A DNA stretch of 40,445 nucleotides from IMG/VR virus record IMGVR_UViG_3300037102_000031, positions 1-40,445 of that record. One strand, written 5' to 3'. The DNA is from a virus. Position numbers and translations under genes: made by a program. The notes below the pieces were generated by a model. That model was not told where the DNA came from. It saw nothing but the letters and a program-made list of their open reading frames with translations, and searched no databases. Positions 3,775-39,236 of this stretch are shown here, in pieces. The number at the start of each line of letters is the position of its first letter. Position 1 is the first letter of the stretch.

Positions 3775-4944
3775 ATGGCCCAATTTACAGAGACCCTACA
3801 GTCGATGCAGAACCGCGTGTGCAAGCAGCGCATCGGCCTGGACCGGACTCTGGCCGTAGACTTCCTTAACGAGAGGTTGCGGCAAATACTCGACCGTAAG
3901 CCGGATTGGTCTAGTCTACTGAAGCGTAACCTTCTATCCATCCCGCAGGCATACTCTATTGGGACGATTGCGGTTACAACTGGGTCTACGCTCGTCGCGG
4001 GAACAGGCACAAATTGGCCTGTAGATGACGCAGTTAATACCCACATCCAGGAGCCACTACGGGCAGCTAGAACCGTTTGGGTCACTCCCGACAGCACTGT
4101 CGGCATCACGCCCAGCAGCCTGCTCTACGTGGACTCCGCAGGCCCTTACCCTGAGACTGTAGCCGTGTTGGACATGATGGCAGGGCGCATCCTGTGCGCC
4201 TTTCAATTCCCGCACGAGGCGAACTTCACAGCGACAGCAAGCTCTCTCGTCAATCTTCAGTTGCGTGTCAATTCAATTAACCCAATTTTCACCGTGCAGG
4301 CGGTAACTAGCCCCACGAGTCTGTATCTAGACAATCCGTGGGGACAGGTTGGCGCTGCGGGGATGGCCTATCAGATTTTGCTAGCCTATACGCCTTTTGC
4401 GGGGGACGTGAAAGAACTGGTTGTCGTTGTGGATAATTTCCAGCAAATCGCGCTCCGGTTGCAGGTATCTCAGGAAGAACTCAACCTGTACGACCCGAAC
4501 CGAACGGCGACTGATTCTCCCAACTGTATTGCCAATTTGGGGCCGAACCTCAACGGCCAGCAAATGTACGAGATTTATCCTCCACCGTCAATCCCGTACC
4601 AGCTTTCTTACCTTTACCATGCCCGTTGGAAGGGGATGAGGCTCCCAGACGATACTCCTCCTGCGGGAATCAACCCCAATGCCCTAATATATGGGGCTCT
4701 GGCAGATGCCTTTGCTACGCCTTGCCCTCGCCCTCCAGACATGAAGGATGCGTTCTTCAGCCTGGAAACGGCGAATATGTACCAATCTCGGTTCGAGCAG
4801 GCCGTCATCGAACTTATGACTTCCGAAGAGAGCACATACCAGAAGGCCTTTACTTGGAATTTCGCTCAAACTTGGGGAGGAATGGGAATGGGTGCGAACT
4901 GGGAGCAATCGCACTCGTGGGAAGCGGCGGCTGGAGATTACTAA
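3775..4944 (+). CDS. Phage adaptor-like structural protein (head-tail connector type)
   Basis: 389 residues. The N-terminal ~50 residues are helical (LAVDFLNERLRQILDRKPDWSSL), followed by a beta module at ~62-120 (GTIAVTTGSTLVAGTGTNWP). Near residues 280-310 comes 'PPPSIPYQLSYLYHARWKG', then a helical end (ALIYGALADAFATP...FEQAVIELM). This order resembles SU10-type phage adaptor proteins, which join portal and tail. It could instead be a tail-tube protein. Start: ATG 3775 with aaagagagag upstream (3764-3773). The 15 bases at 3753-3767 recur before the gene at 18278. The coding sequence contains one copy of the dispersed 14-base motif (4319-4332). Confidence 0.55.
   Translation: MAQFTETLQSMQNRVCKQRIGLDRTLAVDFLNERLRQILDRKPDWSSLLKRNLLSIPQAYSIGTIAVTTGSTLVAGTGTNWPVDDAVNTHIQEPLRAARTVWVTPDSTVGITPSSLLYVDSAGPYPETVAVLDMMAGRILCAFQFPHEANFTATASSLVNLQLRVNSINPIFTVQAVTSPTSLYLDNPWGQVGAAGMAYQILLAYTPFAGDVKELVVVVDNFQQIALRLQVSQEELNLYDPNRTATDSPNCIANLGPNLNGQQMYEIYPPPSIPYQLSYLYHARWKGMRLPDDTPPAGINPNALIYGALADAFATPCPRPPDMKDAFFSLETANMYQSRFEQAVIELMTSEESTYQKAFTWNFAQTWGGMGMGANWEQSHSWEAAAGDY
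4319..4332 (+). repeat. Dispersed 14-base motif, copy 1 (GTCTGTATCTAGAC)
   Basis: Lies inside the adaptor-like gene and reads with it. It differs from the main form by a T in place of C at position 10; flanking bases (GAG before, A after) match the other copies. Confidence 0.6.
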
Positions 4945-4945
4945 T

Positions 4946-7432
4946 ATGAAACACTTTCCTTTCCCTGTCTTGATTGCTTTCTCTCTCTTCACGGCGAAAG
5001 CTCAGACCATCCCCCAGCCTCTCCAAGTGGTTAGGGTCTACAACGTCACAAGCGCCTCTCAGGTGTTCGACAACCGCTCTACGGCGGCTATGGGCTGCAA
5101 CTACTTCAGTTACTACGTGAACAGCAACGTAGGGGCCTATACGATCCAGTTGGAGTACAGCGACGTGAGCAGGACTGGGCCGTGGACGCCATTCCCCACA
5201 AGCCAGATCACCAACACGTCCTTTGTCCCAATTGGCGTCGGCAACGGGTATCACAATTGGGTGCGCCTCAACACGCTTTCAGGTAGCACGTCTTCAACGC
5301 TCTCCTGCTCCAAGGACTACTTCATCACCTCTTCGGCTTCCTCTATCAGCGCCATAGCGGACCCTGGCCTAAACTGCATTCCCTACCGCAGCGGGGCAGG
5401 AGAGGCGCGATGCGTGGTTGTCTCTGACATTGCAAACCTCTTTGGGTCGCTGGCCGAACACTATGTTTACGCTGCTCCAGAAAATGCGAACGGTTTGCCT
5501 TCTTTCCGTCAAATGTATGCCGACGACATCAGCTTTACACAAACAGGGGCAGGGGCCGTCGCTAGTACGGTAGACGCCAAGCTCAGAGAAACAATTAGCG
5601 TTAAGGACTTCGGGGCCAAAGGAGATGGCGTGACCGACGATACCGCGGCTATCCAGGCGGCGCTGACGGCGGCTGGCACTAGTTGTGGGCTGGTTTACTT
5701 CCCTCACGGCACGTACATGATGAGCGTGACGGCGGGCAGTCTCACGGGCACGGTGATTCCGAGCTGCGTGGAAATGGCGGGCGAATCCAACACCGGGGCG
5801 GTCATCAAGCTCAAGAGCGCGGCATTCAATGGCGAATGGTTCAGCTCTAACGGGACGCATAACATCACCATCCGCGATCTGACGTTCGACGGGGCGAACG
5901 CGCCGATTAACAGCGGCTATGGCACGGTAACGACAAACGGAACGGCGGTCACTCTCGTAACGGGCACCCCGTTCTATACAGACGGGACGTGGGCGGGGCT
6001 GCCGTTCGTCATCAACTACGTTTACTATACAATCGCCTCCGTGACAGACAGCTCTCACCTGGTGCTCACCGCGACCGCTGGGGTGCAATCCTCCGCCGTC
6101 ACATACTTCAGCGTGGGGCTCTTTTACCAAGTGATCGGAATGGTCAATGCCTCCTACGTCACGATCAGGGACTGCCGATTCGTCAACGTCTTTCCCACGC
6201 TGGTGGTCGCCTTCTACGGCGGGGCCGGATTTATCACCCTGGACCACAACTACATCGAGACCACGGCGGCCAGCGGGAACCAGAACGAAGGGTTCAACAT
6301 CAGCACCGGCGGCCCTTACGCGATGAACGGAGTACGTGTCACAAATAACACCCTCGTCCATACCGGTATGGACATCAACACCTACGGGGCGCATGTGGAG
6401 GGCAACGACATCAGCGGGTGGGGATATGGCGCTGGGATCACCACAGAAGAAAGCGCCCTGTGCGGGTACAACCTAATCTCCAGAAACATGCTCGTTAGCT
6501 CGACCGGGATCGACACTAATGCAACCCGTCCCAACGCGATTGAGGACTGGGCGTCTTACGATAGGATCACCGAGAACTTCGTAAGCGGAATGTCGGGAGA
6601 CGGCATCGATGCGGGCGGCCCCAATACCCTGATCGCCAACAACATAACAATCGACAACGGCTCTAGCGCTCCGGGAGCAGGGTGCGGTATATCGGCGCGC
6701 TACGGGAATGACACGTACCAGTGCAGCTACTGCACCTTCACTGGGAACGTGTCCCTTGATACAAATTCCAACCTAGCTCTGGGGACTCAAGGTTACGGAT
6801 TCTGCATCCAGGCCAGCCCTAGCGGCACGCTTCCGACTCATGTCTTTGTCACGCCGGACAACAACTTCAACCACAATATGGAGAACCCGACGAATACGGT
6901 ATTAGCCCAAGGTACGGTGACTACCAACCACAACATAATCACCTGGGCTTCCGGCTCGCCGTTTGTAACAAGTGGCCCATGGTTTAACGGGATGACAATT
7001 GTCATAAATAATGTGGCCTACTCCATCGGCAACGTAGGCTCCGCCACGGCGCTGGCCGTGAATGAAGACAGCGGGGTCCAGGCCACCGCCGTACCCTACT
7101 ACGTGCCGGCATTCGATCAGACCAAGGCCGTCTGGGCGCTTTCCCAGGGCGTCCCTCCTTCGTTCCCCTACTGCGTCGCCTGGACCCCCGGTACAATCGC
7201 CGCCGGTGCCACGGCATCTGTCCAGGAGACTGTCCCCGGAGCGCAAATGGGGTCCACGATTGCGCCACCCAGTTTCTCCCTGAACGCGGGCGGCGTGCTG
7301 TTCTACGGGTACGTATACACCCCCAATGCCATCACCTTCGTGGCCTACAATCTCTCCGGTGCGTCGCAGACCTTGGCCGCCGGACAGATTTGCACGACCG
7401 TGACCATGCCTCTCGGCTATAGCAACTACTAG
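4946..7432 (+). CDS. Tailspike with pectate-lyase-type right-handed beta-helix
   Basis: 828 residues. Residues 1-20 are a signal peptide. Residues ~20-200 form an N-terminal beta domain with several Cys. At ~215-240 is the hallmark 'VKDFGAKGDGVTDDTAAIQAAL' region of pectate-lyase-3/GH28-like tailspikes, followed by short beta-helix rungs (NITIRDLTFDGA, VTIRDCRFVNV, FITLDHNYIETT, YDRITENFVSG, NTLIANNITIDN). A ~65-residue module occurs twice, at about residues 325-392 and 656-722. The last ~100 residues form a separate beta-sandwich-like end. Such proteins bind and often cleave host surface polysaccharide; catalytic residues cannot be assigned by eye. ATG 4946 lies 1 base after the previous stop; an earlier in-frame ATG (4892) lies inside the upstream gene and would hide the signal peptide. 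Confidence 0.8.
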   Translation: MKHFPFPVLIAFSLFTAKAQTIPQPLQVVRVYNVTSASQVFDNRSTAAMGCNYFSYYVNSNVGAYTIQLEYSDVSRTGPWTPFPTSQITNTSFVPIGVGNGYHNWVRLNTLSGSTSSTLSCSKDYFITSSASSISAIADPGLNCIPYRSGAGEARCVVVSDIANLFGSLAEHYVYAAPENANGLPSFRQMYADDISFTQTGAGAVASTVDAKLRETISVKDFGAKGDGVTDDTAAIQAALTAAGTSCGLVYFPHGTYMMSVTAGSLTGTVIPSCVEMAGESNTGAVIKLKSAAFNGEWFSSNGTHNITIRDLTFDGANAPINSGYGTVTTNGTAVTLVTGTPFYTDGTWAGLPFVINYVYYTIASVTDSSHLVLTATAGVQSSAVTYFSVGLFYQVIGMVNASYVTIRDCRFVNVFPTLVVAFYGGAGFITLDHNYIETTAASGNQNEGFNISTGGPYAMNGVRVTNNTLVHTGMDINTYGAHVEGNDISGWGYGAGITTEESALCGYNLISRNMLVSSTGIDTNATRPNAIEDWASYDRITENFVSGMSGDGIDAGGPNTLIANNITIDNGSSAPGAGCGISARYGNDTYQCSYCTFTGNVSLDTNSNLALGTQGYGFCIQASPSGTLPTHVFVTPDNNFNHNMENPTNTVLAQGTVTTNHNIITWASGSPFVTSGPWFNGMTIVINNVAYSIGNVGSATALAVNEDSGVQATAVPYYVPAFDQTKAVWALSQGVPPSFPYCVAWTPGTIAAGATASVQETVPGAQMGSTIAPPSFSLNAGGVLFYGYVYTPNAITFVAYNLSGASQTLAAGQICTTVTMPLGYSNY

Positions 7433-7457
7433 GAGCGCCAAAGGATAGAATACCTAA

Positions 7458-8068: not shown

Positions 8069-8348
8069 CGCTTACAAGACGGAGCCATCCACTATTAAAT
8101 GGGGCCTAAATCCTGGACAGATTATTACGATCATCGTCCTGGTAGTAGGCATGGCTGCCTCTTGGGGTAGTCTCTCTCAGCAGATTGCTACGCACACCGA
8201 AATGCTCGGCAGGATGTCGGTAGACCAAGCCACTATGGGCCGTGACCTCCTCGGATTGCGGGAAGAACAGGCGCGCGTTCGCGGCAAACTGGAAGAGCAT
8301 GATCGTGAAGATTCCGCGTGGCGCGCGGCTCATCGTCAAGACAGATAA
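8058..8348 (+). CDS. Small membrane protein with coiled-coil tail, lysis region
   Basis: 96 residues. The first ~20 residues are polar, residues 21-38 form one membrane segment (QIITIIVLVVGMAASWGS), and the rest is a charged helix likely to form a coiled coil (LLGLREEQARVRGKLEEHDRED). The layout fits small phage holin or spanin-like proteins next to endolysins, but I recognise no family. ATG 8058 is chosen because ggag (8043-8046) lies upstream; TTG 8037 would put the ribosome site inside the gene. Confidence 0.6.
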   Translation: MPDNAYKTEPSTIKWGLNPGQIITIIVLVVGMAASWGSLSQQIATHTEMLGRMSVDQATMGRDLLGLREEQARVRGKLEEHDREDSAWRAAHRQDR

Positions 8349-8361
8349 AAGAGAGGGTATT

Positions 8362-8688
8362 ATGCAGCGTAAACCAGACAACGGCGAGTCCACGTTCGAC
8401 AAGTTTCGTTCTCCGCAGGCGGTCCCAGTGGAGCCTGAAGGTGAGATCCTTCAACGCATGGCCCAGTCGGACACCTATAACGAAAGCGAACGCAAGTCAA
8501 TGGTGAGATCGGCGGAATGGCTTAATCGTGAGGCTATGGGGCGGGAACTGTTCAACACGCAGATGAACTCGCCTGGGGCTTCTACGTTCTCCAAGGGCCG
8601 AGTGTTCGATTGCCCAGAGCCGGAAACGTCTGAGCGAAGGAAAGAGAGCATCAAAGACTTTCCAGAAGTTCCTAGCAGTCGCAGGTAG
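8362..8688 (+). CDS. Hypothetical protein, polar, 108 residues
   Basis: Begins MQRKPDNGESTFDKFRSPQ with a gagaggg ribosome site (8351-8357). It is strongly hydrophilic (many Glu, Arg, Ser) with a helical stretch around residues 40-65 (YNESERKSMVRSAEWLNREA) and no membrane segment. It lies between the lysis-like membrane proteins and an adaptor-like structural gene. I recognise no family. The frame extends upstream to 8242, but that would overlap the previous gene by over 100 bases. Confidence 0.6.
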   Translation: MQRKPDNGESTFDKFRSPQAVPVEPEGEILQRMAQSDTYNESERKSMVRSAEWLNREAMGRELFNTQMNSPGASTFSKGRVFDCPEPETSERRKESIKDFPEVPSSRR

Positions 8689-8700
8689 AGAAGGTGCGTA

Positions 8701-9354
8701 GTGCCGCTTGTTACGCTTGGGAGTCTTATCGGCCGGGTGTACACACGCCTTGATAATAATGGCCTACTCTACCCTCGTCCGGAGATTGTCAATGCCATTA
8801 ACGAAGCGGTCCAGGTCGTCAACCTCTCCACGGGGTTCATCCAAGGCACTTTCCAGATTCCAGGGTGGTCTCAGGTCAACCGAGTCTGGTACGACACCCC
8901 CGCTCAGATCATCATTCCCCTGCGCGTCACGTTCGAGGGCATGTACCTTCAACCGACGACGCTTTGGCAACTGGGCGCTTCTTATCCCAATTGGACGGCA
9001 GACACAACCAGCAGTGTGGGGCTTCCTGTTTCCTATTGGGTCCCGTGTGGTCTGACGAAGTTCGGGATCTACCCCGCTGATTCCCTTGGTGGCTGTGACA
9101 TCAGGGTAACTGGAGTGATGGAGCCGGTCCCATTGGTGGCCGATACGGACATCCTCAATCTCCCCAACGAGTACGCCAGCGCCGTTGATTTTCTGGCGGC
9201 ACATACCCTCATGCTGAAGGAATCCTCAACCATCTTTGCACACGGATCGACGGACTATCAGAAGTACCTGTCCGTCAACAAGAAGATGACAATTTGGAAG
9301 GGGTTGACGCAACCGCGCTACTTCTTACCGGAAGCCCAGCAGGCTAAAACATGA
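8701..9354 (+). CDS. Phage adaptor-like structural protein
   Basis: 217 residues, GTG start at 8701 with gagaagg upstream (8688-8694). The N-terminus (LGSLIGRVYTRLDNNGLLYPRPEIVNAINEAVQVVNLSTGF) is the usual helical opening of phage head-tail adaptor proteins, with the 'yprpEIvnaINEAvqvvN' pattern. A beta-rich middle follows (FGIYPADSLGGCDIRVTGVMEPVPL), then a helical end (PNEYASAVDFLAAHTLMLKE). This architecture is typical of connector proteins between portal and tail. It is one of three adaptor-like genes in this block. The stop overlaps the lysozyme start (ATGA). Confidence 0.55.
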   Translation: MPLVTLGSLIGRVYTRLDNNGLLYPRPEIVNAINEAVQVVNLSTGFIQGTFQIPGWSQVNRVWYDTPAQIIIPLRVTFEGMYLQPTTLWQLGASYPNWTADTTSSVGLPVSYWVPCGLTKFGIYPADSLGGCDIRVTGVMEPVPLVADTDILNLPNEYASAVDFLAAHTLMLKESSTIFAHGSTDYQKYLSVNKKMTIWKGLTQPRYFLPEAQQAKT

Positions 9355-9872
9355 CAGATGAATTCCAAGCAAAGCTGATCGCCATGCTCTCTACCCATGA
9401 GGGCCGCAAAGCATGGATGTATCCCGATACAGCAGGGAACGTCACCGTGGGGGTAGGGCACATGATCCCCTCGCCCGATGCCGCAACGCAGTTAGGGTTC
9501 TCAGACGCCAATCTTGAGACGGCTTCAGAGGAGGATGTCGTCAACGGATGGGGCTTTGTCAAATCCAGCAACCAGGAATACAAGGCACTGACGCTATCAG
9601 ACAGCAAAATCAACAATCTCCTAATGGGGGATGTGGCTCACTTCTACCTTGTCTTGATCCAGACTTTCCCAAAGTTTAAGTCTTATCCTGAGTCAGCCCA
9701 ATTGGGCCTCTACGACATGGTATTCAACCTAGGAAGCTTTCGGGCTTTTCCTAGATTTGCGGCGGCTGTGCTGCAACAGAATTGGGCATCGGCGGCGGCA
9801 GAATGCCAGCGTGAAGGCATTGGAGCCGCCCGCAATCAGGATACGAAGAATCTTTTCCTGGAGTGCGCATGA
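9351..9872 (+). CDS. Endolysin, GH24 (T4-type) lysozyme
   Basis: 173 residues. The N-terminus reads E17-x8-D26-x5-T32 followed by VGVGH, which keeps the Glu-Asp-Thr catalytic spacing of T4 lysozyme (E11, D20, T26). The enzyme hydrolyses the MurNAc-GlcNAc bond of peptidoglycan at host lysis. The C-terminal half has the family's 'ALxDMVFNLGxFxxFPRFxxAVxxxxW' segment (residues ~120-150). There is no signal peptide or membrane anchor, so it would need a holin; two candidate membrane proteins lie upstream. The start overlaps the previous stop (ATGA), as does its own stop with the next start. One copy of the 14-base dispersed motif lies inside (9651-9664). Confidence 0.9.
   Translation: MTDEFQAKLIAMLSTHEGRKAWMYPDTAGNVTVGVGHMIPSPDAATQLGFSDANLETASEEDVVNGWGFVKSSNQEYKALTLSDSKINNLLMGDVAHFYLVLIQTFPKFKSYPESAQLGLYDMVFNLGSFRAFPRFAAAVLQQNWASAAAECQREGIGAARNQDTKNLFLECA
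9651..9664 (+). repeat. Dispersed 14-base motif, copy 2 (GTCTTGATCCAGAC)
   Basis: Lies inside the lysozyme gene, where it encodes VLIQ-T. The 14 bases are identical to the copy at 39223-39236 on the other strand. Reads with transcription. Confidence 0.7.
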
Positions 9873-10946: not shown

Positions 10947-10952
10947 GACAAC

Positions 10953-14981: not shown

Positions 14982-14989
14982 AGGATTTT

Positions 14990-20729: not shown

Positions 20730-23700
20730 ATGCCTAGCGATGTGTTTGCTGAGTATGGGGGTGCTCTTGTAACTGCTCCGCCAGATGCCAAGACAGACAT
20801 CTTTGCGGAGTATGGTGGGAAATCTGTATCTACCCCTAAGCCGAACCTAGCCGCCGCTAGCGCAGAGGCCGAACGGGCTGCGGTTACGCACATGGGGCCA
20901 GTTACCCCTCCGGGGGAAGAAAAGCGACCGCTCTCAACCGTGCCTGGGGCAGAGAAAACGGGGCTACCTGGGGTGCCGTTGGTGGGCACATACCGGCCCA
21001 TTATCCCGATGGGAGTTCCGCAACCGCAGGTTCCGTATGGGCTGCAATCTCCCGAAGAACAAGCAAAGAGCGCCCCTCAGTTTACAAACCCGCGCACGGG
21101 AGCAAAGTCCCCTCGCGTGCCTCCAGGCCAAGAGGGCGGGCCAGTCTCTTGGATGACCGACATGCCGATCACTGGGGCTCAGCGGGTGGTGGCTGGCGTT
21201 GAGGGGTTGGGCAAGCCTGCGGAAGCGTTTGCCACCCCCGACAAGCCGGGTGGCTACGGCAACAAACTGACGCCTGAACTGAGGAAGCAGGCCTCTGCCG
21301 CTGGGACGGAAATCATAACTGGCGGGCTGGAGGTAGCGACTCCGTTTATGATCGCGGGCGCAGCCGTTGCGCCGGTTACGGCGCTCAAAGCCGTTGGCCT
21401 GTACGCGGGGACGGAATATGCTACCCGCAAGGGGCTTGAGTCGGCTGGAGTTGCTCCAGAACATGCTCGATTCTTCGGCCAAGTGGCCGGGCTGGCTTCC
21501 GGCTCTATCCCCATCGGCCTGAAGATCATCGACGCAAGGCTGGAAGCGCACAACGAAATTGCCGAGAAGTTGTTCCAGGAAGAAGCCGAAGGCGGGCAAC
21601 GTATCGAGAAGATGCGCGATGTTATCGCTCAGAGCCCTGAGATCGCTAAGCCCATCCCCGTATCCATTGGCGGCAAACCGCATGAGATTCGCTTCCTGGA
21701 TGTTGGCAAGAACGGACGTCTCTCCCGCGAGGTCATTGATCTTAAAACAGGGAAGCGCGTATATGCAGGATACGACAAGGCCGTTTCTGGATGGCTCCAT
21801 ATCCATGCCGACGCCGAGCAAGGTCCTGTCGTAAAACTGACGGTTAAGGATGCTACGGGCAAGGTAATCGAAGAAGGGCTCATCACCCCAGAGCAAGCCG
21901 ACTTTGCCAAAGACCTTGTGGCGTCTAAGGCTCCCGACCACACCGTAACGATTGAGCCGGTCGAGCAAGCGCCGAAACCAGCCGCCGAAGCCGCCACTAC
22001 GGAACCGCCCGTAACGTCAAAGAAAGGAGGTTCTGAGCGTGTCACGCCCGAAGGGCAACAGCCCGGAAAGGAAGTGATCCAGCCATCTAGCGCGGAGGCC
22101 CCTGCCCCGAAGACAGAGGCGGGGGCTACTGCGCCTACGGCGGATTTCAAGCCGGGGCAGGTATGGAACTTAAACGGCGGGGCTTACGCTGTCACCAGCA
22201 TCGAGGCCGACGAATCCGGCAAGCCTATCGTTAAATACGACTTCACCGGGCCGAAGGGGAATAAGAACCCCAACCAGAAGATCCCCCTTGCTGCGTTTAC
22301 CAGCATGATGTCGAAGGGCAAGCTCCAGGGTGCGGCAGAGGGCACTGCTGCGCCACCAGCGGCGGCGGAGCCACCGGCCAAGGCGGAAGCGGCCAAGCCC
22401 GTAGAGATGCCGTCAGAGGCCAAGGCAGAGCCAATTAAGCCGCCGCTCAAGCCGAAGCCTGCGCCGAAGCCCGTTGAGTCTGCATCCAGACAAGCGCCGC
22501 CTGCTGATGCGGCTAAGTCCGAATCTACACCCGCGAAGGTAGCCGGGGTTATATCTAGGGAAAGCAACAACTTACCGAATAAAGCCCCCCCCGAGGTGGC
22601 CACCCCTAAGGCCGTGACCGAGCCACCCGCGCCGAAGCTCGACCCTGAAGAACTCCCTGCGATGAAGCGGCTTAGGGCGGCAGGGCAAGCCATCTCCGAC
22701 ACGGAACTGACGCAGCTTCAACTGCCCAAGGCCAAAGTGATACTGGCGAAGCTCAAGCAGGTAGGGGAAGCTGCATTAGCGGAGGCCGACAAGCAGACCG
22801 ATCCCAGCGCAGCGGCAGAGCTAAGAAGGGTTGCGGCAGAGACGGACAAGCGGGCGGAGAGCATCCGCAACAGGGCGAAGGTGCTGGAGCAAGAGCAGGC
22901 GGCGAAGGCCGCGCCGAAGGCGACACCAGCACCGCCTACTACACAAAACGCTCCCTCAAATGAGGCGAAAAAGCAGGAAGTAGCGGCTGATAACTTAACA
23001 GAGGGCAACGAGTTAAGTTCTGCGTCTGTAAAACCTGCTCAGATTATTCCAAAAGATATTCCTCCCGTGACGAGAGCCAAGGCAGCAGACTTCAAGGTGG
23101 ATTCCGCGAAGCCGGAAGATCTGGTTGCATCACAGGACTTCCAGAAATGGGCTGGAGATCCCAACCAAAAGCGTTCTTTCCGCGATACCTACGGGGACGC
23201 CATCCGCATTGCGGATCAAATCCGAGATGCTATCAAGAGTGGGCGTCCAGCCGCTACTATTGAAGCGCAGAGAGAGGCATTAAGGGAGGCTCTTGAAGAG
23301 ATCGGCGTGAAGGCGGAAGCCAAGCCCACGGATCTCATATCGATTCCAGCTAGATCGAAATCCCGCGATACGGACAAGGGCTATGAACAGTGGGCAAAGG
23401 ATGTCCACAACCTGAGCCTGTCCACCTACCGAGACAAGACACCATTCGCGCCAAGTGACTTGACGAAGCTAACGGATACACAACTGGAGGATCTGAAGTC
23501 GGCTGTCGATGAGGCTGCGTCTTGGCACCCCAAGGTCCAGCCCGGTAGAGATCTGGTCTTCACCTCGCCAGAGCAAGCGGCGTCGATGAAGTGGTGGGAC
23601 AAGCAGCGGGACGACATCAAGAAGGAGTTCTGGAGGCGTGGAGAGCCAGCACGCGAGGCCGAGAAGCAGGCGAACAAGGTCGCGGCAGACAAGAAGGACC

Positions 23701-26700
23701 AGGAAGCCTTCGAGCGAGCCACGACCGTCAGGCCCAAGAACCCTACGCTCAAGGACGTTGACGCTCAGCGGGACAAGGACATTCCCGAAGGCTACCGCGT
23801 CTCGGGATACTCAGGCGGGCAGCGCCTACTGACGCAGGCCGGGCAGTTTAGCGTCTACCAGACATTCGATACGAGAGAGTGGGGATGGTACGACGAGAAG
23901 GTCGGCCCTTCTAAGAAGGTGAAGGAGCGATACCAGGAAGGAGTCAAGTCCCCAATCACTCAAAAGTATATCGACGACGAGACCGCCTACATTTATGGCC
24001 CGTGGGCAAAAGAGCGCAAAGTTGCGACCGCGCCTCCTCCCGCGCAAGCGACCGTGCCGCCGCCCTCAGCCGTAGACAAAGAACTGCCTGCGGCGAAGAA
24101 GAATACCGTGGAGCCGTCTGTCGAACGCTACGAGGAGTTGCAGAAAGAAGTCCGCGCCATACAGAAGAACCCCGTCTATGCAGAAGACACGCACGAGGGG
24201 ATGCAGCTTCGAGACCGTGCCCTTGAGTTAGAAGACGAGATGCTGTTGCACCGCAAAGTGGCGATAGCGAAGTATCAGGCAGACATTGACAGGGAAAAGG
24301 CGGAACGTGAAGCCAAGGCCAAGAAGGCCGAACCCCCAGCGGTGAAGAAGGCGGAGCATAAACCCGCACCAGCAGCCGAGAAACCACTTGAAACCAAGGA
24401 AGAAAAGAAGCAAACTAAAGCGGAAGAGAAGCCCGATGAGCAGCCAAAGCGATCTGACGACCGAGCAGTTGGAGAAGGGCCAAAGGTTTCAGGAACTCGT
24501 AAACCAAGCGTCCGACCGATTGCGGGTGAGGGGACGAAGATTCGTGTTCCAGGACGAGATCGAGCCTACGCCGCCGTCTACTCCGTCCGAGAACTCTCCG
24601 ACACCTACCCAAGCCACGACCCGTTCTCCTTTGAGCGAAACGCCGACTACCACCACCTGAACGACCGGGACTATACCGATCCCGTCGCACAAACTCGCGT
24701 TATCGTCAACAGCGGGGCAAAGTTCGATCCTGATTATCTAATCACGGATGATCCCACGGCCACCAACGGCCCGTCTATTATTGACCCGGATGGTAACGTC
24801 TTAGGCGGGAACAACCGGCGCATGACGCTGGAGCGCGTGTACGCGCAGAACCCCAAGGGGGCCGCTGCGTATCGCGCCTTGTTGGTGAAAAAAGCGGCTG
24901 TGTTCGGGCTTGACCCCAAAGCAATTGAAGGGATTAAGAAGCCCATATTGGTTCGGGAATTGAAGGACGCGGATGTCAAGCCACAACGCGCCATAACCGA
25001 TCTAAACAAGGGTACTACTGCCGCACTTTCGCAGGGAGAGCGGGCTACTGCTGACGCCAGAAGCATGACGGCAGAGACGGCCAGCCACATTGCCAGCGTC
25101 TTGGAATCTGTGGGGCCAGACGTAAACCTGAATGATGTCCTCAGTTCAAAGTATGGGCCGGTGCTCATCAACCGCCTCATCCGCGAGGGCATCTTCACAG
25201 AAGAGGAACGTCCCGCCCTACTAGATGACAAGAATGGAACCGTCACCAAGGAAGCTAAAAACCGAACGGCCAAGATGTTACTGGGGGATCTGTTCACAGA
25301 CAACCAGCAATTTGAACGAGCAGAACCTTCTCTTCGCAACAAGCTAGAGCGTACCGTCGTTTGGCTAAAGAAGGTCGAGCGCGTCCCTAGGTGGGGCCTG
25401 ACCAAAGACGTGCGCGATGCCATCTCCCTGATTGAGCACGAGCGCGACGAGAAGGAATACCAAGAGGCGCACGGATTCAAGGCTGGTGGGTTCTTGGCTG
25501 AAAACCAAGCCGATATGTTCGGTGGCGCTGGCGAGAGACCACAAGTATCTGAGAAGGCCGAGAGAATAGCCGAGTTCATAAAGGGGAACAGCCAAAAGAG
25601 TATTGCCCAAGCATTTAAGTCCTATGCTGCGGATGCGGCCAAGTCCTATGCTGCGGATGCGGCCAAAGCAGAGGAGTTGTTCGCAGAGAGGGCGCAGGAG
25701 ATGCCCACAGGGAAGGCTCCAGGGGAAGCATTTGATGACTCTTTCGGGGCAGCGAAGAAGGAACCTGAGCCATCTGCCAAAGCCGATACCGGCCCAATCA
25801 AAACGCAAGCCCCGCCGCAGGCGGCAGCGGAGCCGGAGTCTGCATCCAGACAGACGGCTCCCCCTCCCGGCGCTGGCAGCGTCACTCTTGGAGGTGGCCT
25901 GGGCGCGCTTGATCCCTACGTGGAAGAGGCTATCGACGTAGCCAAGAAGTACACTCCGCTCGTCATGTCGCACTTGGCAGAATTGCCTCCTGTCCAGGGT
26001 GCGGCTGAGACGATGAAGCTGGCTCGGCAGGCATTTGACCCACGGCATAACGTCTCCTTCGGCGCTCTGAACTCCGTGATGAAGCGTAACGGGAGCATGG
26101 TGGAGTTTAACTGGATTTTGCAGCAGCTTGGGGATCGGTGGCGTAGCCTGTTCGATGCGATGCCCGCCCGTATGCAAGTGGGGTTCGTTGATGCCATCCG
26201 GCATGGGCGCAAGCAGAAGGCGCAATTCCCAGCGCGAAGTAGCCTATTGGGGAAGAGGGAAGCACAGGACATATCCGCGCCGTTACAAGAGGCGGCTGAC
26301 TTCTTTAGGGGCGTAGACGACGATCTCTACCATTCCCTGCAAGAAGTGGGTGTCAATCCAGAATATCTGGAGAACCACTACCGGACTCTGTGGAAAGTGA
26401 TCCCCTCATTTGGGGAGCCGTCAGACAAGCGTGGGTTCAAGGGCGTCACTAAGCAGAGGCTTGAAGGCACCAAGGGGATGCTGAAAAAGCACGTCTTCGA
26501 GGATATGAGCGAAGGCTTGCGTTGGGACTTCTCCGCGTTGACGGAAGAGGAAGTCCATGCCGCCATGCAGAAGGCTGGGATCAGGCCGGATGGGTACAAG
26601 GTGGAGCAGGGTGTCGATAACCTGGAGGTGACGCCTTTCTCAGACAAGGCCATAGACGCCCTCAACAAACTGGAGAAGAGTGGGGCCGAAGTTGTCAAGC

Positions 26701-30859: not shown

Positions 30860-30913
30860 TTCCTCAATCTCCTTACTTAATCCCAATACTTTTCGTAATA
30901 CCCAATCTGGGAT

Positions 30914-30946: not shown

Positions 30947-30954
30947 GATGCCTC

Positions 30955-32102: not shown

Positions 32103-32172
32103 CACGTCTTCCTTAAACAGCCCCGTGGCTACGGGCTCATTACTAAACGCCACTGTGATTTCGGACACCTAA

Positions 32173-32201
32173 ATTATTATCCTATTGGGCTCGCGTGTCA
32201 A
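32173..32201 (-). promoter_or_regulatory. Strong sigma70-type promoter
   Basis: Reading the - strand, TTGACA (32201-32196, 6 of 6) is followed after 17 bases by AATAAT (32178-32173, 5 of 6) in an AT-rich TAATAAT context. Transcription would begin near 32166, giving a leader of about 65 bases before ATG 32102. The -35 box overlaps the stop of the methyltransferase gene, and motif copy 5 lies 7 bases upstream. It should drive the distal part of the right block (32102 to 29394). Confidence 0.8.
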
Positions 32202-32860
32202 GCCCCTTGTCTGGATACAGACTTCAGTAAAAAGCAGAAGTACACGTCTTTGCCAGCAGGCACATCTACGTGGCAATCGAATGGGTCTACGACCTCCAAC
32301 TCTGCCTTGTGAAACAAGCTCCACCACCCCTCTTGGCTGAAACAGGAATAGTGATTTGCGTTTCGGAAATGTTCACAGGGCGTGCTAGGGCTGGGGACTT
32401 CCACATAGAGGAACCCGTCAGGGGCAAGCTGATCTCTTAGGGCTTCCAGGAGGAAGAGGGGGATGGGGGAGTGCTCGACGATGTGTCGAGCCCAGACTAG
32501 GTTATATAGGCGTGGATCTGATTTCCATAGGGCGATACGGTGCACGTCCTCTTCTATGAAGAGGGTCAGCATTTCTTTGAACATGCCAAACTTGCGAGAC
32601 TCTAAGGGGATGTCGCCAATACGGGAAGTAACCCCGAGATAGCGGGAGTATCCTGCCTCTGCGAACATCTCTCGGGCAAAGCCGTTGGCGCAGCCTACGT
32701 CCAGGACAGACGTGCGCTGTTCTGAGGGAATGGATTTAAGCACCCGCTGGAAGACTTGCTGAGAGATTGAAACATGAAAGGCAAGGTTGTCGGGAGGTTC
32801 GGCGTAAGCGGTCTTGCCGCAACGGAGGACGAACTCAGCGAGTTTGGAAGCAAGGTTCAT
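32198..32860 (-). CDS. SAM-dependent methyltransferase, class I
   Basis: 220 residues. Motif I is VLDVGCANGFAREMF (residues ~52-66), the SAM-binding Gly loop. The 'ARHIVEHSPIPLFLLEALRDQLAPDGFLYVEVPSP' stretch (~120-155) matches the methyltransferase-11/23 pattern of 'h.lEH...p...l.e..r.LkPgG.l.i.vP'. Conserved His-Tyr-Ser in NHYSCFS follows, as in sugar or small-molecule methyltransferases near glycosyltransferases. The substrate is unknown; DNA is unlikely because no (D/N)PPY motif is seen. ATG 32860 overlaps the stop of the glycosyltransferase gene (TAATG), suggesting the two act together. Confidence 0.85.
   Translation of the reverse strand: MNLASKLAEFVLRCGKTAYAEPPDNLAFHVSISQQVFQRVLKSIPSEQRTSVLDVGCANGFAREMFAEAGYSRYLGVTSRIGDIPLESRKFGMFKEMLTLFIEEDVHRIALWKSDPRLYNLVWARHIVEHSPIPLFLLEALRDQLAPDGFLYVEVPSPSTPCEHFRNANHYSCFSQEGWWSLFHKAELEVVDPFDCHVDVPAGKDVYFCFLLKSVSRQGA
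32209..32222 (-). repeat. Dispersed 14-base motif, copy 5 (GTCTGTATCCAGAC)
   Basis: Overlaps the 3' end of the methyltransferase gene and lies 7 bases upstream of the -35 box of the promoter at 32173-32201, a position typical for an operator or activator site. Reads with transcription. Confidence 0.75.
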
Positions 32861-33957
32861 TACGCCTCGCAGACGGCCAGCAGATCCTTCGCGCACCGCT
32901 CCCAAGTCAAGTTAGCCTTGATAAACTCCATGCCCTTCCGGCCCATGATTGCCCTGTCGATGGAGCCGAGCTTGTAAGCCTGTTCGACAGCATCGACCAC
33001 TTCTTCCAACTCCGGCTCAACCCAGCCATTCTCTACGGTAGGCCCGCCAATGCAAATGGCGTGATCCTCTAGAACCACGTCCGAGTGCCCGGTCCCATTG
33101 GTGGCGACGATAGGGATACCGCAGGCCATAGCCTCACACATAGGCATGTTGTTCCCGGCTTCCCCTCTGTTGGGGAACAGCCCAATGTGCGCCTGCCGGT
33201 AGATCTGGGGCATCTTCCAGTTAGGCACCATGTCCACCAGCGTATAGCGGTCGGAGGAAATGCCATTGATGGTCAGGTTGGCTTGGATGCGATCCTTCCA
33301 AGTAGCGCCCATCGTTGGGATGTAGCGGATGTGCTTAGAAGCGCAGAGCGAATTCATGATTTCCAGCCATAGGTTACCCCACGCTGCGATCAGGTGCATG
33401 TCGGGGTACTTCTGGGAAAGGATCTTGTAGGCCGCGATTACGATGTCCGTCCCCTTGCGATGTTCGGCCTTGCCGCCGCTGAAGATGTAGAACTTACCGT
33501 CGTTCTTCGGGCCTTCCCCTTCCTTGGGAGCAAACACGTCCGTATCAACCCCTTGGATGGCGACGGTCGGGTGCAGGCCAATCTCTTCCAGTTTCTCTCT
33601 GCACCACGTAGAGCCTGCGACGAGATGTTGGTAGTAGCGGTCCACATGGGGCACGTTGCGCTTTGCCTGCTCAGGGTACTCGGTGTAAACCCAGCCCACA
33701 TTGCGCTTCCAGGACCAAGCGTTGGGGTTCACCGGCATGAAAGACACACCGCCCGTCGCCAGATGCAGCATAGGGTCATCGGACGCATACGGCACTTCTG
33801 GGCTGAACTCTGGCGGGCAGTACTTCTCCATAGGATGCCCCGGCTGTACCTTAGCCAACATACGGATGTCCGTGAGGGAGGCCATCGTGGGCACGAGGTT
33901 GTGCCCCATCACTCCTGCGCCCCAGGAATCGCCCACGACGAGGGACAGGTTAAGCAT
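32860..33957 (-). CDS. Glycosyltransferase, GT4-like (GT-B fold)
   Basis: 365 residues, ATG 33957 with aaaggag at 6 bases. The N-terminal domain includes GDSWGAGVMGHN and VGWVYTEYPEQAKRNVPHVDRYYQHLVAGSTWCREKLEEIG, as in GT4 enzymes. The C-terminal nucleotide-sugar domain has 'GVDTDVFAPKEGE', 'FYIFSGGKAEHRKGTDIVIAAYK' and, near residue 270-300, 'PNRGEAGNNMPMCEAMACGIPIVATNGTGHSDVV', the usual E...E donor loop with an EAMACG-P-V-A block. It would move a sugar to an unknown acceptor. An earlier ATG at 33984 lies in the upstream gene. It overlaps neighbours at both ends. Confidence 0.88.
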   Translation of the reverse strand: MLNLSLVVGDSWGAGVMGHNLVPTMASLTDIRMLAKVQPGHPMEKYCPPEFSPEVPYASDDPMLHLATGGVSFMPVNPNAWSWKRNVGWVYTEYPEQAKRNVPHVDRYYQHLVAGSTWCREKLEEIGLHPTVAIQGVDTDVFAPKEGEGPKNDGKFYIFSGGKAEHRKGTDIVIAAYKILSQKYPDMHLIAAWGNLWLEIMNSLCASKHIRYIPTMGATWKDRIQANLTINGISSDRYTLVDMVPNWKMPQIYRQAHIGLFPNRGEAGNNMPMCEAMACGIPIVATNGTGHSDVVLEDHAICIGGPTVENGWVEPELEEVVDAVEQAYKLGSIDRAIMGRKGMEFIKANLTWERCAKDLLAVCEA

Positions 33958-34366: not shown

Positions 34367-34370
34367 GAGG

Positions 34371-34814
34371 TTAGCGCCAGGAAATCATCAGCCCGCACTT
34401 GGTGCACTGAAAAAGCTTAGGCATGACCCTAGCTAATTCGTGGACGCAATCATTCAACCCGTGAGTGACCACGCAGTACTCGGTTAATTTCGAGACTATT
34501 TCCACTTCTTCCAAGTTTTCGTTGTATGGTTTCACAGTTGCCATGTCTTTTCCTAAAACACCTTGTTTCTTAGTCATCGAGGGCTTCGTGGGATCGTCTA
34601 CTGGGTTTTCATTGATAGCGATACTTGCATTTGCCCACTGCACGCACTTCTGAAGGTCCGTCAGGGCCAAAGACTTCTCCCTTGACTCAGGGCAGGCCCC
34701 GTCAATCAGGAAAGAAAATTCCTTGGCTGCTTCACGAATCTTGATATACCGTTCGGATTGATTCCCGACCGGGGCATGGTACGTGAAGACGTTCTCGATC
34801 TGCTCTTTAGTCAT
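34371..34814 (-). CDS. Acb2/Tad1-type anti-defence protein with Cys-rich C-terminal extension
   Basis: 147 residues. Residues 3-70 read as an Acb2/Tad1 hairpin domain: 'IENVFTYHAPVGNQSERY', 'IREAAKEFSFLIDGACPESR', 'EKSLALTDLQKCVQWANASIAIN'. The F-T-Y-H-x-P, CPxSREKSLALTxLxxxVxWANAxIAxN pattern is the family's signature. Acb2 proteins bind cyclic oligonucleotide signals of CBASS, and Tad1 proteins bind Thoeris signals, so both shut down host abortive immunity. Typical family members are ~65-95 residues. Here ~75 extra residues follow, with C114, C123, C137 and C140 (C-x8-C-x13-C-x2-C) that could form a zinc site. ATG 34814 overlaps the upstream stop (ATGA). Confidence 0.85.
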   Translation of the reverse strand: MTKEQIENVFTYHAPVGNQSERYIKIREAAKEFSFLIDGACPESREKSLALTDLQKCVQWANASIAINENPVDDPTKPSMTKKQGVLGKDMATVKPYNENLEEVEIVSKLTEYCVVTHGLNDCVHELARVMPKLFQCTKCGLMISWR

Positions 34815-36154
34815 TGCAAATACTCCTTTTTTCTTAACGCTTCCCTAACTGCTTCTACTACGGGAGTCCAGTCTCCCAACTTCGTCTGCCGAAAGATCCG
34901 CATCGACCGATACCACTCCGTAGTATCCCCCGTCATCCCCCAGCGCCAGTCCACGATCAATGGCATCAGTAGGTAGCAGGGCACCCCCAGAGTGCCCGCC
35001 AGATGCGCTATGGCTGTGTCCACGGTGATAACCAGATCGAGGCGCTGAATGGCGTCTATCGTAGCGAACCAGTTGGGGAATTCGGGCGTGAAGTCAAACG
35101 CCGCTTTCTCTTCCGGCGAAGCGCCAAACTGTAGGCAAACCGAAGCCGGATCATCAAATAGCGACTTGTCCATCAGTTGCCGCATTACGTCGAAGCTCAT
35201 AGACCGGAAACGGTCGTGCGAGTGATTGGCGTTCCCCTTCCAGCAGTACCCAATCCGGCCCTTCACCCTATTAGAAGCAGGCGGCAGTGGATTCTCTTCT
35301 GGGATGAGGAAGGGCAGCTTCCGGTCATTCAAGTAACGGAGGGTGGACATCAGGGGGAATTGACAATCCGTAACTGGAATTCGGCCCATTGCCGGGTGGC
35401 ACACTTCAACCCCAAACAACCTCGCATAGTCAGCGATTGTGTCGTCGCACCGGTAGTGCCAAGTTGTGTCTGGATGCAGACTCCGAAGCACCTTGAAGTA
35501 GCGGGCAAACTGGAAGGCGTCTCCAGCCCCTTGCTCTCCGACGATAAGCACTTTCTTCCCACCAAGCGTAGCCCCAGCCACATGCTCGTAGTGCGGCGTG
35601 GGGACGGGTGCCCACGGGTTCAGGGTCTTCAGGCGAGCCTCGTAGAATTGCAAGCCCCTGCCCCATTGCCTGTCGAGCATAAGCATCATGCCAAGGCTTT
35701 GTTCTCCTACGGGATTACCAGGAGAAGCGGACAAGGCCGTTTCGTACTCACTGATCGCGGCTTTAATGTCGCCACGATACTGACTATTCATTGCCAAGGC
35801 GCACACGCACTCGAAAGGAAACTGTGCATTAAGTTCCAAAGACTTAATGATGTGCTCCCGTGCCTCGTCAAGCCTGAGACAGACCTGGAGAGCAACGCCG
35901 TAGTTAAGGTGCATCGCAGCATTGTCAGGGGCTATCTCTAGCCCTTTCTCTAATGGGGCAAGCGCCTCTTCCGGGCGACGAAGGTTTATCATTGCCGCGC
36001 CTTCGTTGGAGTACGCATCGGGGCAGTGCGGGGAGATTTCAGACACTTTCCGAAAGAAGGCAACCGCCTTCTCCGGGGCCTTCTCGGAGCCCATCATAAA
36101 TGCTCCAAGTTTGAGGAGGTCGGTTTCTGTCAGGTTAGCGTCGATCTGGATCAT
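34811..36154 (-). CDS. TPR protein with C-terminal glycosyltransferase (GT9/GT41-like) domain
   Basis: 447 residues. Residues ~10-170 hold four or more tetratricopeptide repeats (PDAYSNEGAAMINLRRPEEALAPLEKGLEIAPDN, then AAMHLNYGVAL...). Residues ~200-440 resemble a GT-B glycosyltransferase end: KKVLIVGEQGAGDAFQFARY, KGRIGYCWKGNANHSHDRFRS, and the hallmark 'DLVITVDTAIAHLAGTLGVPCYLLMPLIVDWRW'. The family acts on proteins or glycans; the acceptor is unknown. ATG 36154 overlaps the RuvC-like stop (ATGA). One dispersed motif copy lies inside (35468-35481). Together with the GT4 enzyme and methyltransferase it forms a sugar-modification set. Confidence 0.85.
   Translation of the reverse strand: MIQIDANLTETDLLKLGAFMMGSEKAPEKAVAFFRKVSEISPHCPDAYSNEGAAMINLRRPEEALAPLEKGLEIAPDNAAMHLNYGVALQVCLRLDEAREHIIKSLELNAQFPFECVCALAMNSQYRGDIKAAISEYETALSASPGNPVGEQSLGMMLMLDRQWGRGLQFYEARLKTLNPWAPVPTPHYEHVAGATLGGKKVLIVGEQGAGDAFQFARYFKVLRSLHPDTTWHYRCDDTIADYARLFGVEVCHPAMGRIPVTDCQFPLMSTLRYLNDRKLPFLIPEENPLPPASNRVKGRIGYCWKGNANHSHDRFRSMSFDVMRQLMDKSLFDDPASVCLQFGASPEEKAAFDFTPEFPNWFATIDAIQRLDLVITVDTAIAHLAGTLGVPCYLLMPLIVDWRWGMTGDTTEWYRSMRIFRQTKLGDWTPVVEAVREALRKKEYLQ
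35468..35481 (-). repeat. Dispersed 14-base motif, copy 6 (GTCTGCATCCAGAC)
   Basis: Inside the TPR-glycosyltransferase gene, encoding SLHPD, a different frame from the copies in the giant gene. So the sequence match is at DNA or RNA level and not a shared peptide. Reads with transcription. Confidence 0.75.
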
Positions 36155-36648
36155 TTCAGGACCGTCTCGGCAGCGGTGATGGCGACGGCAAGGGCGCTCC
36201 AAGTGTCGGCAGAGAAGCCGTGTAGCACTCCGTAGCCGGTCTTCTTTGTACCGATAGCCTTATCCTTGCCGCCGTACCTGTCTATAATGGCCTGACGGAT
36301 GTTAGTGTCTTTGGCTTTCATGTTTCCGCAGAGATGGATTTTCACGGCTTTGCGAGGAATCCTCACCACAGAATCGAGGCCGAAAGCCTGAGCGAAGATG
36401 CCGCTCCAATAGACCGTCTCGAAGATCTCAGCCCCGACCGCCATCCCGTAACTGGCGACTTGTTCAATCGCGCAGTACTCAACGTCGCCATAAGGCCACT
36501 TAACCGGATCTTCCAGTTCTTCGATTGCTTTAAGAAGGATCTTGTTGGGAATTTTATTGAACCCGTAGGGGACAGGAGCCTTAGTCTCGGTGTCGTATGA
36601 GACATAGGCGCTGGAATCTGGTCCTGGATCGATAGCTAGAATCTTCAT
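36151..36648 (-). CDS. RuvC-like nuclease (RNase H fold)
   Basis: 165 residues, ATG 36648 overlapping the upstream stop (TGATG). D7 lies in MKILAIDPGPDSSAYV, E62 in YCAIEQVASYG and D148 in HGFSADTWSALAVA, matching three of the acidic metal ligands of RuvC (E. coli D7, E66, D138/D141). The usual fourth acidic residue is Ser151. Members resolve or cut branched DNA; in phages they serve recombination-linked replication and DNA processing before packaging. A longer reading frame exists upstream, but it lacks any reason for an earlier start. Confidence 0.8.
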   Translation of the reverse strand: MKILAIDPGPDSSAYVSYDTETKAPVPYGFNKIPNKILLKAIEELEDPVKWPYGDVEYCAIEQVASYGMAVGAEIFETVYWSGIFAQAFGLDSVVRIPRKAVKIHLCGNMKAKDTNIRQAIIDRYGGKDKAIGTKKTGYGVLHGFSADTWSALAVAITAAETVLK

Positions 36649-37106: not shown

Positions 37107-37108
37107 AG

Positions 37109-37831: not shown

Positions 37832-37870
37832 TTGCGTCAATCTCCTATCAGAATCTCCCTTGTCGTACTC

Positions 37871-38062: not shown

Positions 38063-38067
38063 GAGAC

Positions 38068-38412: not shown

Positions 38413-39173
38413 CAGCCCCGCTCGGCGTCGTGAACCTTCGCGAGCCATTCGGTTTCGCACTCATCCATCAGCCGGGCCAGGATCACACCTTCGCTGTCGG
38501 AGTCGCAATAGGCCTGAATTTCAGCCAACCCCACAAACTCATGCCAGCGATTCCAAACATCCTCTGCCACGTAGATCATTAGGGCCTTGGTGCTCAGTTC
38601 TCCCTTGTCGCCCTGTGTCTCGGTTTCGATCTTCTCGGCAAGCTGCTTGACGGTCGTCGTCGAAGATTCTGCCGCCGCAACCCAGTAGTCGCGTTTCGTC
38701 TGCACCATGTCCACGCTCATGCCCTCTTGGGTGCTCCGCTTGAGCGCGGTTGCCAGCAGATTCAGTTTGGAAAACCCCATCTGCTCCATCTTGTCGGCGG
38801 GCAGAAAATTCAACTGCTCTGCCACCTTGATACAGTTCCAGGCTTCGGGGCGGCTGATATTGAAAAGCTCTGGGACACCCCGCGTGATGAACTCGCTGAA
38901 GGTGGTGTAGCCCTGCTGCTCGTACAGGTGCTTATGCTGGCGTACCAGCATCAGGATACGCCCTAAGAAGGGCTTCAGCCGGGAAACAGCCTGTTGCGCT
39001 CGGGAAAGCCCCTTGGTGACGACATTGAGATACAGCCAGACGTTCTCTGCACTCAGATCCTCTGGGATCGCCTCGATTGAGGGGCGCTCCGAAGTGATAA
39101 GCGCTTGCCAAACCGCCTGTTCTGCCTCGGTGAAAATGGGGAGATTGGAAGTCGTTGCAGGTAGGGTAGACAT
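38412..39173 (-). CDS. Unrecognised replication-region protein
   Basis: 253 residues. Largely helical: residues ~15-60 acidic (TEAEQAVWQALITSERPSIEAIPEDL), ~60-140 with a pattern 'GRILMLVRQHKHLYEQQGYTTFSEFITRGVPELFNISRPEAWNCIKVAEQL' that recalls helix-turn-helix domains with a 'srs.a...ikva' recognition segment, and a more polar C-terminus. It may be a DNA-binding protein for the replication operon. ATG 39173 has no clear ribosome site. A TTGACA hexamer (39206-39211) and a dispersed motif copy lie upstream, but no -10 box follows. Function unknown. Confidence 0.6.
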   Translation of the reverse strand: MSTLPATTSNLPIFTEAEQAVWQALITSERPSIEAIPEDLSAENVWLYLNVVTKGLSRAQQAVSRLKPFLGRILMLVRQHKHLYEQQGYTTFSEFITRGVPELFNISRPEAWNCIKVAEQLNFLPADKMEQMGFSKLNLLATALKRSTQEGMSVDMVQTKRDYWVAAAESSTTTVKQLAEKIETETQGDKGELSTKALMIYVAEDVWNRWHEFVGLAEIQAYCDSDSEGVILARLMDECETEWLAKVHDAERG

Positions 39174-39222
39174 TACCAGTTCACGCTGCCACAGACGCGC
39201 ATTGTTGTCAACCCCTTAATGT

Positions 39223-39236
39223 GTCTGGATCAAGAC
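39223..39236 (-). repeat. Dispersed 14-base motif, copy 7 (GTCTTGATCCAGAC)
   Basis: Spans the stop codon of the helicase gene and lies 11 bases before a TTGACA hexamer (39206-39211) ahead of the next gene. Followed by AGGGG then TTGACA, as copy 5 is followed by AGGGGC then TTGACA. Reads with transcription. Confidence 0.75.

Follow-up and report, generated by a model that had tools for sequence, protein, structure and literature searches.

The IMG/VR virus record IMGVR_UViG_3300037102_000031 is a 40,445-base stretch of phage DNA, referred to here, at its full length, as the window. It carries genes for DnaB-like helicase, tail, lysozyme, adaptor, methyltransferase and glycosyltransferase proteins, and seven copies of the motif GTCTNNATCYAGAC are dispersed over it. 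Sites of this kind are present in excess, are conserved at the DNA level and have a common architecture, a 14-bp palindrome starting with GT and ending with AC, which related phage lineages spell differently.

All seven copies in the original prediction were recovered exactly, with the same positions and strands (four on the + strand, three on the - strand). The first (4319..4332, +; GTCTGTATCTAGAC) is inside a + gene (3775-4944) and is read in the frame AGT CTG TAT CTA GAC. The second (9651..9664, +; GTCTTGATCCAGAC) is inside the phage lysozyme gene (9351-9872) and is read as GTC TTG ATC CAG AC. The third and fourth (22478..22491 and 25838..25851, both + and both GTCTGCATCCAGAC) are inside a gene for a protein of 2886 amino acids (20730-29390) and have the same frame, GAG TCT GCA TCC AGA C. 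The fifth (32209..32222, -; GTCTGTATCCAGAC) covers final codons of the methyltransferase gene (32198-32905, -). It adjoins a promoter-like match of the sigma-70 type (TTGACA-17-AATAAT, 32173..32201, -; a consensus match only, 11/12) and is located 7 bases before its -35-like box. The sixth (35468..35481, -; GTCTGCATCCAGAC) is inside a TPR gene (34811-36202, -; glycosyltransferase match below threshold) and is read as AGT CTG CAT CCA GAC. The seventh (39223..39236, -; GTCTTGATCCAGAC) is located at a gene junction, where it covers the stop codon ending the DnaB-like helicase gene (39230-40381, -). The 17-base and 19-base stretches common to several copies and the encoded peptides SASRQ and SLHPD were also as first described.

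When the central bases were freed, the pattern GTCT-N6-AGAC found the same seven sites only, against 0.50 expected in the window; the AT centre is thus no product of the search pattern. Dinucleotide shuffles of the window (100 shuffles) gave 0.00 copies. Shuffles preserving each encoded protein as well as codon use, a control of the kind proposed with the prediction, gave a mean of 0.35 and a maximum of 2 copies (300 shuffles). Two-mismatch versions were found 22 times against 4.3 expected (standard deviation 2.25), and 14 of these 22 were the seven true copies counted on both strands. The other eight barely exceed chance, and the site is thus nearly all-or-none.

Relatives were gathered using the terminase or the portal protein, and the deeper ones using the terminase large subunit. 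GTCT-N6-AGAC was present in 9 of 11 records from the first relative search and in 10 of 11 from the portal search. A near-identical, but not exact, version of the window is contained in the 96-kb record IMGVR_UViG_3300048503_000021 (G001), which the outermost 200 bases of the two window ends match at 34,569 and 74,814 (counting from 0). Among the 4+4 dyads of G001, GTCT-N6-AGAC has the strongest over-representation, with 16 copies against 1.24 expected; the reversed pattern occurs once, and codon-preserving shuffles gave a mean of 0.63 and a maximum of 3.

The anatomy of the site in this group of close relatives (clade A) was determined from 18 non-redundant sites, 16 from G001 and one each from G006 and G022, a set that excludes G010:6013 (GTCTTGGACAAGAC) and homologous repeats. 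The consensus covers 16 bp, W-GTCTKNATCCAGAC-W, with the pattern W-GTCT-K-N-ATCC-AGAC-W. Four elements never vary: GTCT, the A at the centre, the C that follows the centre, and AGAC. Both outer positions are occupied by A or T in 18/18 sites, and every other position varies in at least one copy. The site at G001:93598 is a perfect palindrome. Three spellings are found at one locus in relatives, GTCTCGATCCAGAC, GTCTTGATCCAGAC and GTCTCGATACAGAC, ahead of the same gene, and GTCTGCATCC or GTCTGTATCC is found at another homologous place.

These alignments bear on two explanations. The first is an RNA hairpin acting in transcripts, one of the candidates named at the outset. Of the six copies folded, five adopt the stem of the motif itself, with z-scores of -2.3 and -2.8 for two, but the sixth folds elsewhere and three copies have z between -1.53 and -0.80. 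The central positions do not covary to preserve pairs. The outer pair is not kept, since the following base is A in 14/18 sites and the preceding base is A in 10/18. The hairpin was rejected because the fold energies are inconsistent and the pairs do not covary, and is the least probable of the explanations weighed. The second is that the sites are promoters of a phage-encoded sigma factor. A sigma-70 region 4 protein is encoded in both clades described here and some sites precede genes, but no further column exceeded the 99.9% threshold within 80 bases of the 18 sites, so that a second element at fixed distance is missing. The site is moreover a palindrome, and copies lie within genes or 0 to 14 bases away from start codons. 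This explanation, ruled out for want of a second box, is highly improbable.

Conservation was compared with that of the encoded protein. The sites occupy all three reading frames and codon shuffles rarely recreate copies; shared protein sequence is therefore ruled out as their origin, in agreement with the original prediction. In G006, the third window site is GTCTGTATCCAGAC, with an Ala-to-Val change in the encoded residue, the second is kept though neighbouring codons differ, and the position of the fifth carries the variant GTCTGCATCCAGAC. The use of all three frames and the survival of a residue change indicate that the site acts at the DNA level. The site at G021:23781 arises by synonymous choices in a peptide common to G001. 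Loss of the bases with retention of the peptide, named beforehand as contrary evidence, was seen at one site, G001 38888 (window 4319), whose clade B homologue retains most of the peptide.

Clade B (G020 and G021, portal 69% identical) has 8 and 9 copies of GTCT-N6-AGAC (0 and 1 for the reversed control). The 9 copies in G021 compare with a mean of 1.01 and a maximum of 4 in codon-preserving shuffles, and 6/9 fit GTCTTGAYGYAGAC. One is found just ahead of the portal start, matching the G001 placement. When the AT centre was required, G021 had 2 copies, equal to the shuffle maximum of 2, and clade B has thus lost the AT centre.

To survey the relatives without bias, all 4+4 dyads with gaps of 0 to 16 were scanned in G001, the window, G006, G021, G024, G023, G025, G026, Tunturi_1, Tunturi_2, G027, G028, G029, G030 and G034 to G039. 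These were treated as 16 lineages, with G001/window/G006, G025/G026 and Tunturi_1/2 each counted as one. Nulls were 20 order-1 sequences for G001, G021 and G024 and 5 order-2 sequences each for ten records; Tunturi_1, Tunturi_2, G023, G025, G026, the window, G006 and six control phages were scanned without a null. Dispersed 14-bp GT...AC palindromes were found in 11/16 lineages, and in those 11 the leading dyad is the palindrome site or its inner part. A twelfth is G035 (GT..AATnTT..AC, 19 copies; 16-bp form 5 times against 0 in 20 Markov-3 sequences). Its motif was noticed by eye and checked afterwards, the scan having missed it, with a best dyad below the null. A targeted look only gave three AGTCYAGATCTRGACT places in G025/G026. 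No such palindrome was seen in the scans of G036 and of G023 and G029, both fragments.

Consensuses were symmetrised, and copies are given for the loose 4-N6-4 form unless stated. The consensus is palindromic in all 11 records compared, and examples from relatives are GTATTGATCAATAC (26 copies), GTCTTGNNCAAGAC (15), GTCCCACGTGGGAC (17) and, for the cultured Tunturi phages, GTCCAATATTGGAC. By lineage, the spellings are GTCTGgATcCAGAC in clade A (16 copies), GTCTtnatnaAGAC in clade B (G021, 9 copies), aaGTATTgatcAATACtt in G024 (26 copies in 106 kb against 1.4 expected), gTCCGnatnCGGAc in G027 (17 copies, strict form), ATGTCTTGnnCAAGACAT in G030 (15 copies), GTCCcACGTgGGAC in G034 (17 copies), GTCCaACGTtGGAC in G037 (9 copies), GTnCAACGTTGnAC in G038 (35 copies of the inner 8 bases) and GGTCTGgnncCAGACC-like in G039 (6 copies). 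G028 is weaker, gTCCGgCGcCGGAc having 14 copies of the inner form and only 3 of the full form. Tunturi_1 has 8 copies of AGTCCAAtaTTGGACT, against a mean of 1.13 and a maximum of 5 in codon-preserving shuffles. In G027, the loose count of 41 and the leading-dyad score are inflated by a tandem array at 75503-75908, which has a 27-base period and a unit containing CTCCGGTGGCGGAG or ATCCGGTGGCGGAG.

The spelling is nearly confined to its lineage. Among 14 records, the 14-bp or 16-bp patterns occur at most twice outside their own lineage or close pair; the exception is the G027 form, found 3 times in G028. The shorter, 8-bp CAACGTTG is found up to 4 times. Such confinement would be expected of an identity mark, by which a phage nuclease, methylase or exclusion system tells its own DNA from foreign DNA, and phage HNH and DNA methyltransferase genes exist. 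No such enzyme could be linked to the motif, however, and the enrichment before G001 gene starts described below would be left unexplained; an identity mark is unlikely. Nor was there evidence for the recombination or protection site that had been proposed.

In six controls (Shocker, the first 50 kb of Tunturi_3, Tunturi_4 and N4, lambda and T7), the top dyad was never a GT...AC 14-bp palindrome. Their best dyad scores were 6.7 to 15.5, the 15.5 of T7 resting on 4 copies. The top dyad in the first 50 kb of Tunturi_4 was a different one, TGCA-N5-TGCA (7 copies against 0.39 expected). Sites for a host DNA-binding protein, with each phage lineage fitting its own host, could also produce differing spellings. 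The lineages may differ in host, and Tunturi_1 and Tunturi_2, on one host strain, have one motif. The first 50 kb of Tunturi_3, which has the same host strain, show no dyad of this kind, which makes a host protein very doubtful.

Orientation was scored by the stronger half-site relative to local transcription. The original prediction that copies always follow the direction of transcription held within the window (7/7, or about 1 in 64 with the orientation picked afterwards) and failed as a general rule. In G001, 11 sites point downstream, with the genes, 3 upstream, 1 is symmetric and 1 undecided; two sites already within clade A, G001:13923 and G006:29732, read against neighbouring genes. G021 has 2 sites with and 7 against local transcription, G024 10 with, 10 against, 3 symmetric and 3 undecided, and Tunturi_1 2 with, 4 against, 1 symmetric and 1 undecided. 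The ratios of 2:7, 10:10 and 2:4 rule out a general orientation rule, and what is left is at most a bias of clade A. Equal numbers in both orientations had been named as an argument against the motif, and something like this was found in the relatives, though the motif is re-spelled there. Both this result and the peptide retained without its bases are also expected from turnover with a changing binder.

The stoperators of phage L5 had been offered as a model. As described in PMC9283540 and PMC6550527, L5 and cluster A phages have 20 to 30 short sites genome-wide, some on promoters and most not, whose spelling varies between lineages with the repressor. The L5 sites, 13 to 14 bp long, are not symmetric dyads; a monomer binds them, and they no longer work in reverse orientation. 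The sites described here resemble them in number, dispersal, lineage-dependent spelling and partial location at gene junctions, and those of the window and most of those of G001 (11 vs 3) read with the genes. They differ in being palindromes without general orientation, in phages in which no tyrosine integrase was found. Strict polar stoperators, that is, asymmetric sites at which a monomeric lysogeny repressor stops elongation in one direction, are therefore quite unlikely, although dispersal itself was correctly anticipated.

The life style was assessed from gene content. The tyrosine integrase family PF00589 was found in 0/12 records (some possibly incomplete) and a resolvase-family recombinase in 3/12; hence, a classical lysogeny repressor is not indicated. 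Two scans of a bacterial genome collection revealed no prophage relative. No helix-turn-helix repressor family was seen among the 25 families listed, of 34 Pfam families, for 74 G001 proteins, a search that did not include the L5 repressor itself as query. These results lend no support to a plain lysogeny switch, though one may be concealed by the incompleteness of records or take a plasmid-like form. In phage P1, a large plasmid-prophage, asymmetric operators of the single repressor C1 are dispersed over the genome.

Genes of the metagenome records were called by a simple predictor, with hand correction for the start and non-coding analysis of G001. There, 6/16 site centres are located at most 60 bases ahead of a start codon, in a zone that makes up 7.2% of the genome (p = 6e-4); 7/16 sites are non-coding, a modest enrichment over 16% (p = 0.008). 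Enrichment within 60 bases before starts was also found in G038 (8/35) and G021 (3/9) and was borderline in G037. Non-coding enrichment was clear in G024 (16/26, p = 5e-4) and G034 (11/17, p = 3e-4) and modest in G030. In G024, 4/26 sites overlap a promoter-like match (at least 10/12) or are at most 5 bases from one, against 1.2% of random places.

Spacing was more even than random over 11 records (combined p = 3e-5), a signal carried by G027, G001, G038 and G034 (p = 0.0015 to 0.029). Regular spacing and the presence of sites inside genes make genome organisation or partition the strongest rival explanation. A phage protein would condense, segregate or space the genome in the style of MatP/matS or ParB/parS, and transcription would be beside the point. 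Sites in both coding and non-coding DNA, the lack of general orientation and the presence in eight lineages of a candidate ribbon-helix-helix (RHH) protein, with the RHH protein MatP among its weak fold hits, are in keeping with this. It does not predict the enrichment before G001 starts or over G024 promoter-like matches, and the regularity is not significant in 7/11 records. We regard it as possible but rather unlikely.

In the reading that we favour, with a probability of about 0.5, the motif represents operators, scattered over the genome, for a symmetric DNA-binding regulator encoded by the phage. This dimeric or tetrameric protein would bind the 14-bp palindrome at sites throughout the genome, with roughly one in every 3 to 8 kb. 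Sites on promoters or gene starts would serve as operators, and those elsewhere probably as roadblocks or silencing anchors. The reader protein would change specificity quickly, giving each lineage its own spelling genome-wide. We infer both the binding of the sites by a phage protein and the control of transcription as its outcome. The placements suggest promoter blocking in G024 and near some G001 gene starts; roadblocking may occur at the other sites.

The candidate reader is a small protein on the strand opposite to the terminase gene. In G001 it has 71 amino acids (15416-15631, opposite strand to the surrounding genes), and a conserved orthologue is present in clade B. Hidden Markov model searches detected orthologues in G024 (7.5e-12) and G023 (3.9e-11), then in G029, G027, G039 and G026, making 8 lineages in all. 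The G026 orthologue scored weakly to begin with (E 0.46, later 0.0026) and was accepted partly by gene neighbourhood; a second G039 hit (8318-8479) in the last round was judged spurious and was not counted. By locus coordinates, the gene is upstream of the terminase gene and on the opposite strand in 8/8. The monomer model (mean pLDDT 77) has two confident helices and no strand. Among the 50 PDB matches listed by Foldseek, most were RHH proteins, led by AtaR and CopG and including Arc, none at E <= 0.001. The Pfam family RHH_3 was matched in one orthologue only, below threshold (E 0.011), and no match was obtained in the others. MatP, CopG and Arc are RHH-type proteins that read short sites, matS being dispersed; binding of the palindromes by the phage protein is, in comparison, a candidate activity only, and the protein is a lead, not an identification.

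Several results weigh against the operator reading. The RHH orthologue was undetected in six motif-bearing lineages (G028, G030, G034, G037, G038 and Tunturi), or seven with G035, and G023 and G029, fragments under 24 kb, have the candidate and no clear motif. RHH presence therefore does not track the motif. Enrichment before starts was absent in G027, G030, G034 and Tunturi_1; non-coding enrichment was lacking in G027 and did not reach significance in G021, G028, G037, G038, G039 and Tunturi_1. Overlap with promoter-like matches was 0/16 in G001, 0/9 in G021 and 0/8 in Tunturi_1, even at a looser cut-off. The even spacing is individually significant in 4/11 records only, the orientation is unconserved across lineages, and the missing tyrosine integrase counts on the same side.

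Two further ideas on the RHH protein were discarded. Readout of the half-site by Arg or Gln of the RHH strand (clades A and B vs G024) was dropped, as G039 and G026 have Gln with GTCT/GTCY. As for autoregulation through a site near the RHH gene, G024 alone, among five records, has a site 226 bases upstream; elsewhere the nearest sites are 256 bases downstream (G027), 762 bases away (G039) or 1 to 2 kb away (G001 and G021).

Tunturi_1 and Tunturi_2 are cultured phages with a distantly similar portal (27% over 48%), and an Acidobacteriota host for the group is suggested by this link. A wider reading, which we hold tentatively, is that these form a large group of soil podophages that lack a recognised tyrosine integrase and probably infect Acidobacteriota, having in common dispersed 14-bp GT...AC palindromes, all 6 to 35 of which would be re-spelled together with their reader. 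The sites might then form a rapidly re-coded genome-wide address used in lytic growth, for transcription timing, genome layout or kin exclusion, and not for classical lysogenic silencing.

Temperate phages, L5 and SPbeta among them, are already on record as having dispersed repressor sites. The SPBRE element of the Bacillus phage SPbeta (15 bp, about ten genome places) is read by the master repressor MrpR according to PMC10516654, and demonstrates that a repeated element across one phage genome can prove to be a master-repressor site. Unlike the sites described here, SPBRE is in promoter regions, MrpR has a tyrosine-recombinase fold and SPbeta is temperate. Closer in puzzle than L5 are the T1-like lytic phages Stevie and TLS, whose dispersed, mostly intergenic repeats were likened by the authors to stoperators, with a role in lytic life given as unknown in PMC4319613 and PMC11447400. 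The Stevie repeats differ in being 22 bp long, asymmetric and oriented with transcription, and T1-like phages infect enterobacteria.

A limited look at the open-licence literature found no report of a phage system of such dispersed palindromes. What is new is that a single architecture occurs within one phage group in about twelve different spellings. These spellings provide a natural series for the joint change of a DNA-binding protein and its many sites, and the role of the dispersed sites is directly testable, as the host of Tunturi_1 and Tunturi_2 can be grown.

Other features were recorded in these genomes. The gene for the sigma-70 region 4 protein is at 14694-15503 (+) in G001 and 11145-11939 in G021, and its 3' end overlaps the opposite-strand RHH gene; the phage sigma factor of both clades resembles FliA by eye only. 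At G001 85612-85677 and 91370-91415, two sites directly adjoin terminator-like hairpins (by eye), and a promoter-like TTGACATGCGAG is located 24 bases beyond the former. Three TTGACA boxes of G001, at 66770 (-), 85702 (+) and 13896 (+), lie near sites and have the common continuation TTGACANGCGAG. TnpB-like (IS605 OrfB) genes, named by eye from translations, are found at G001 86065-87210 (-) and 90017-91159 (-) and at G017 3265-4392 (+); the insertions are at differing places, and one interrupts the sigma gene in G017. An Acb2/Tad1 hairpin domain, from an anti-defence sponge family, was matched in 1 of 74 scanned G001 proteins. The G021 major head protein is encoded by two open reading frames (24649-24984 and 25767-26492) with about 780 bases between them, an intron-like arrangement, and extra stretches of about 690 and 770 bases fall within the terminase matches in L102 and L106.

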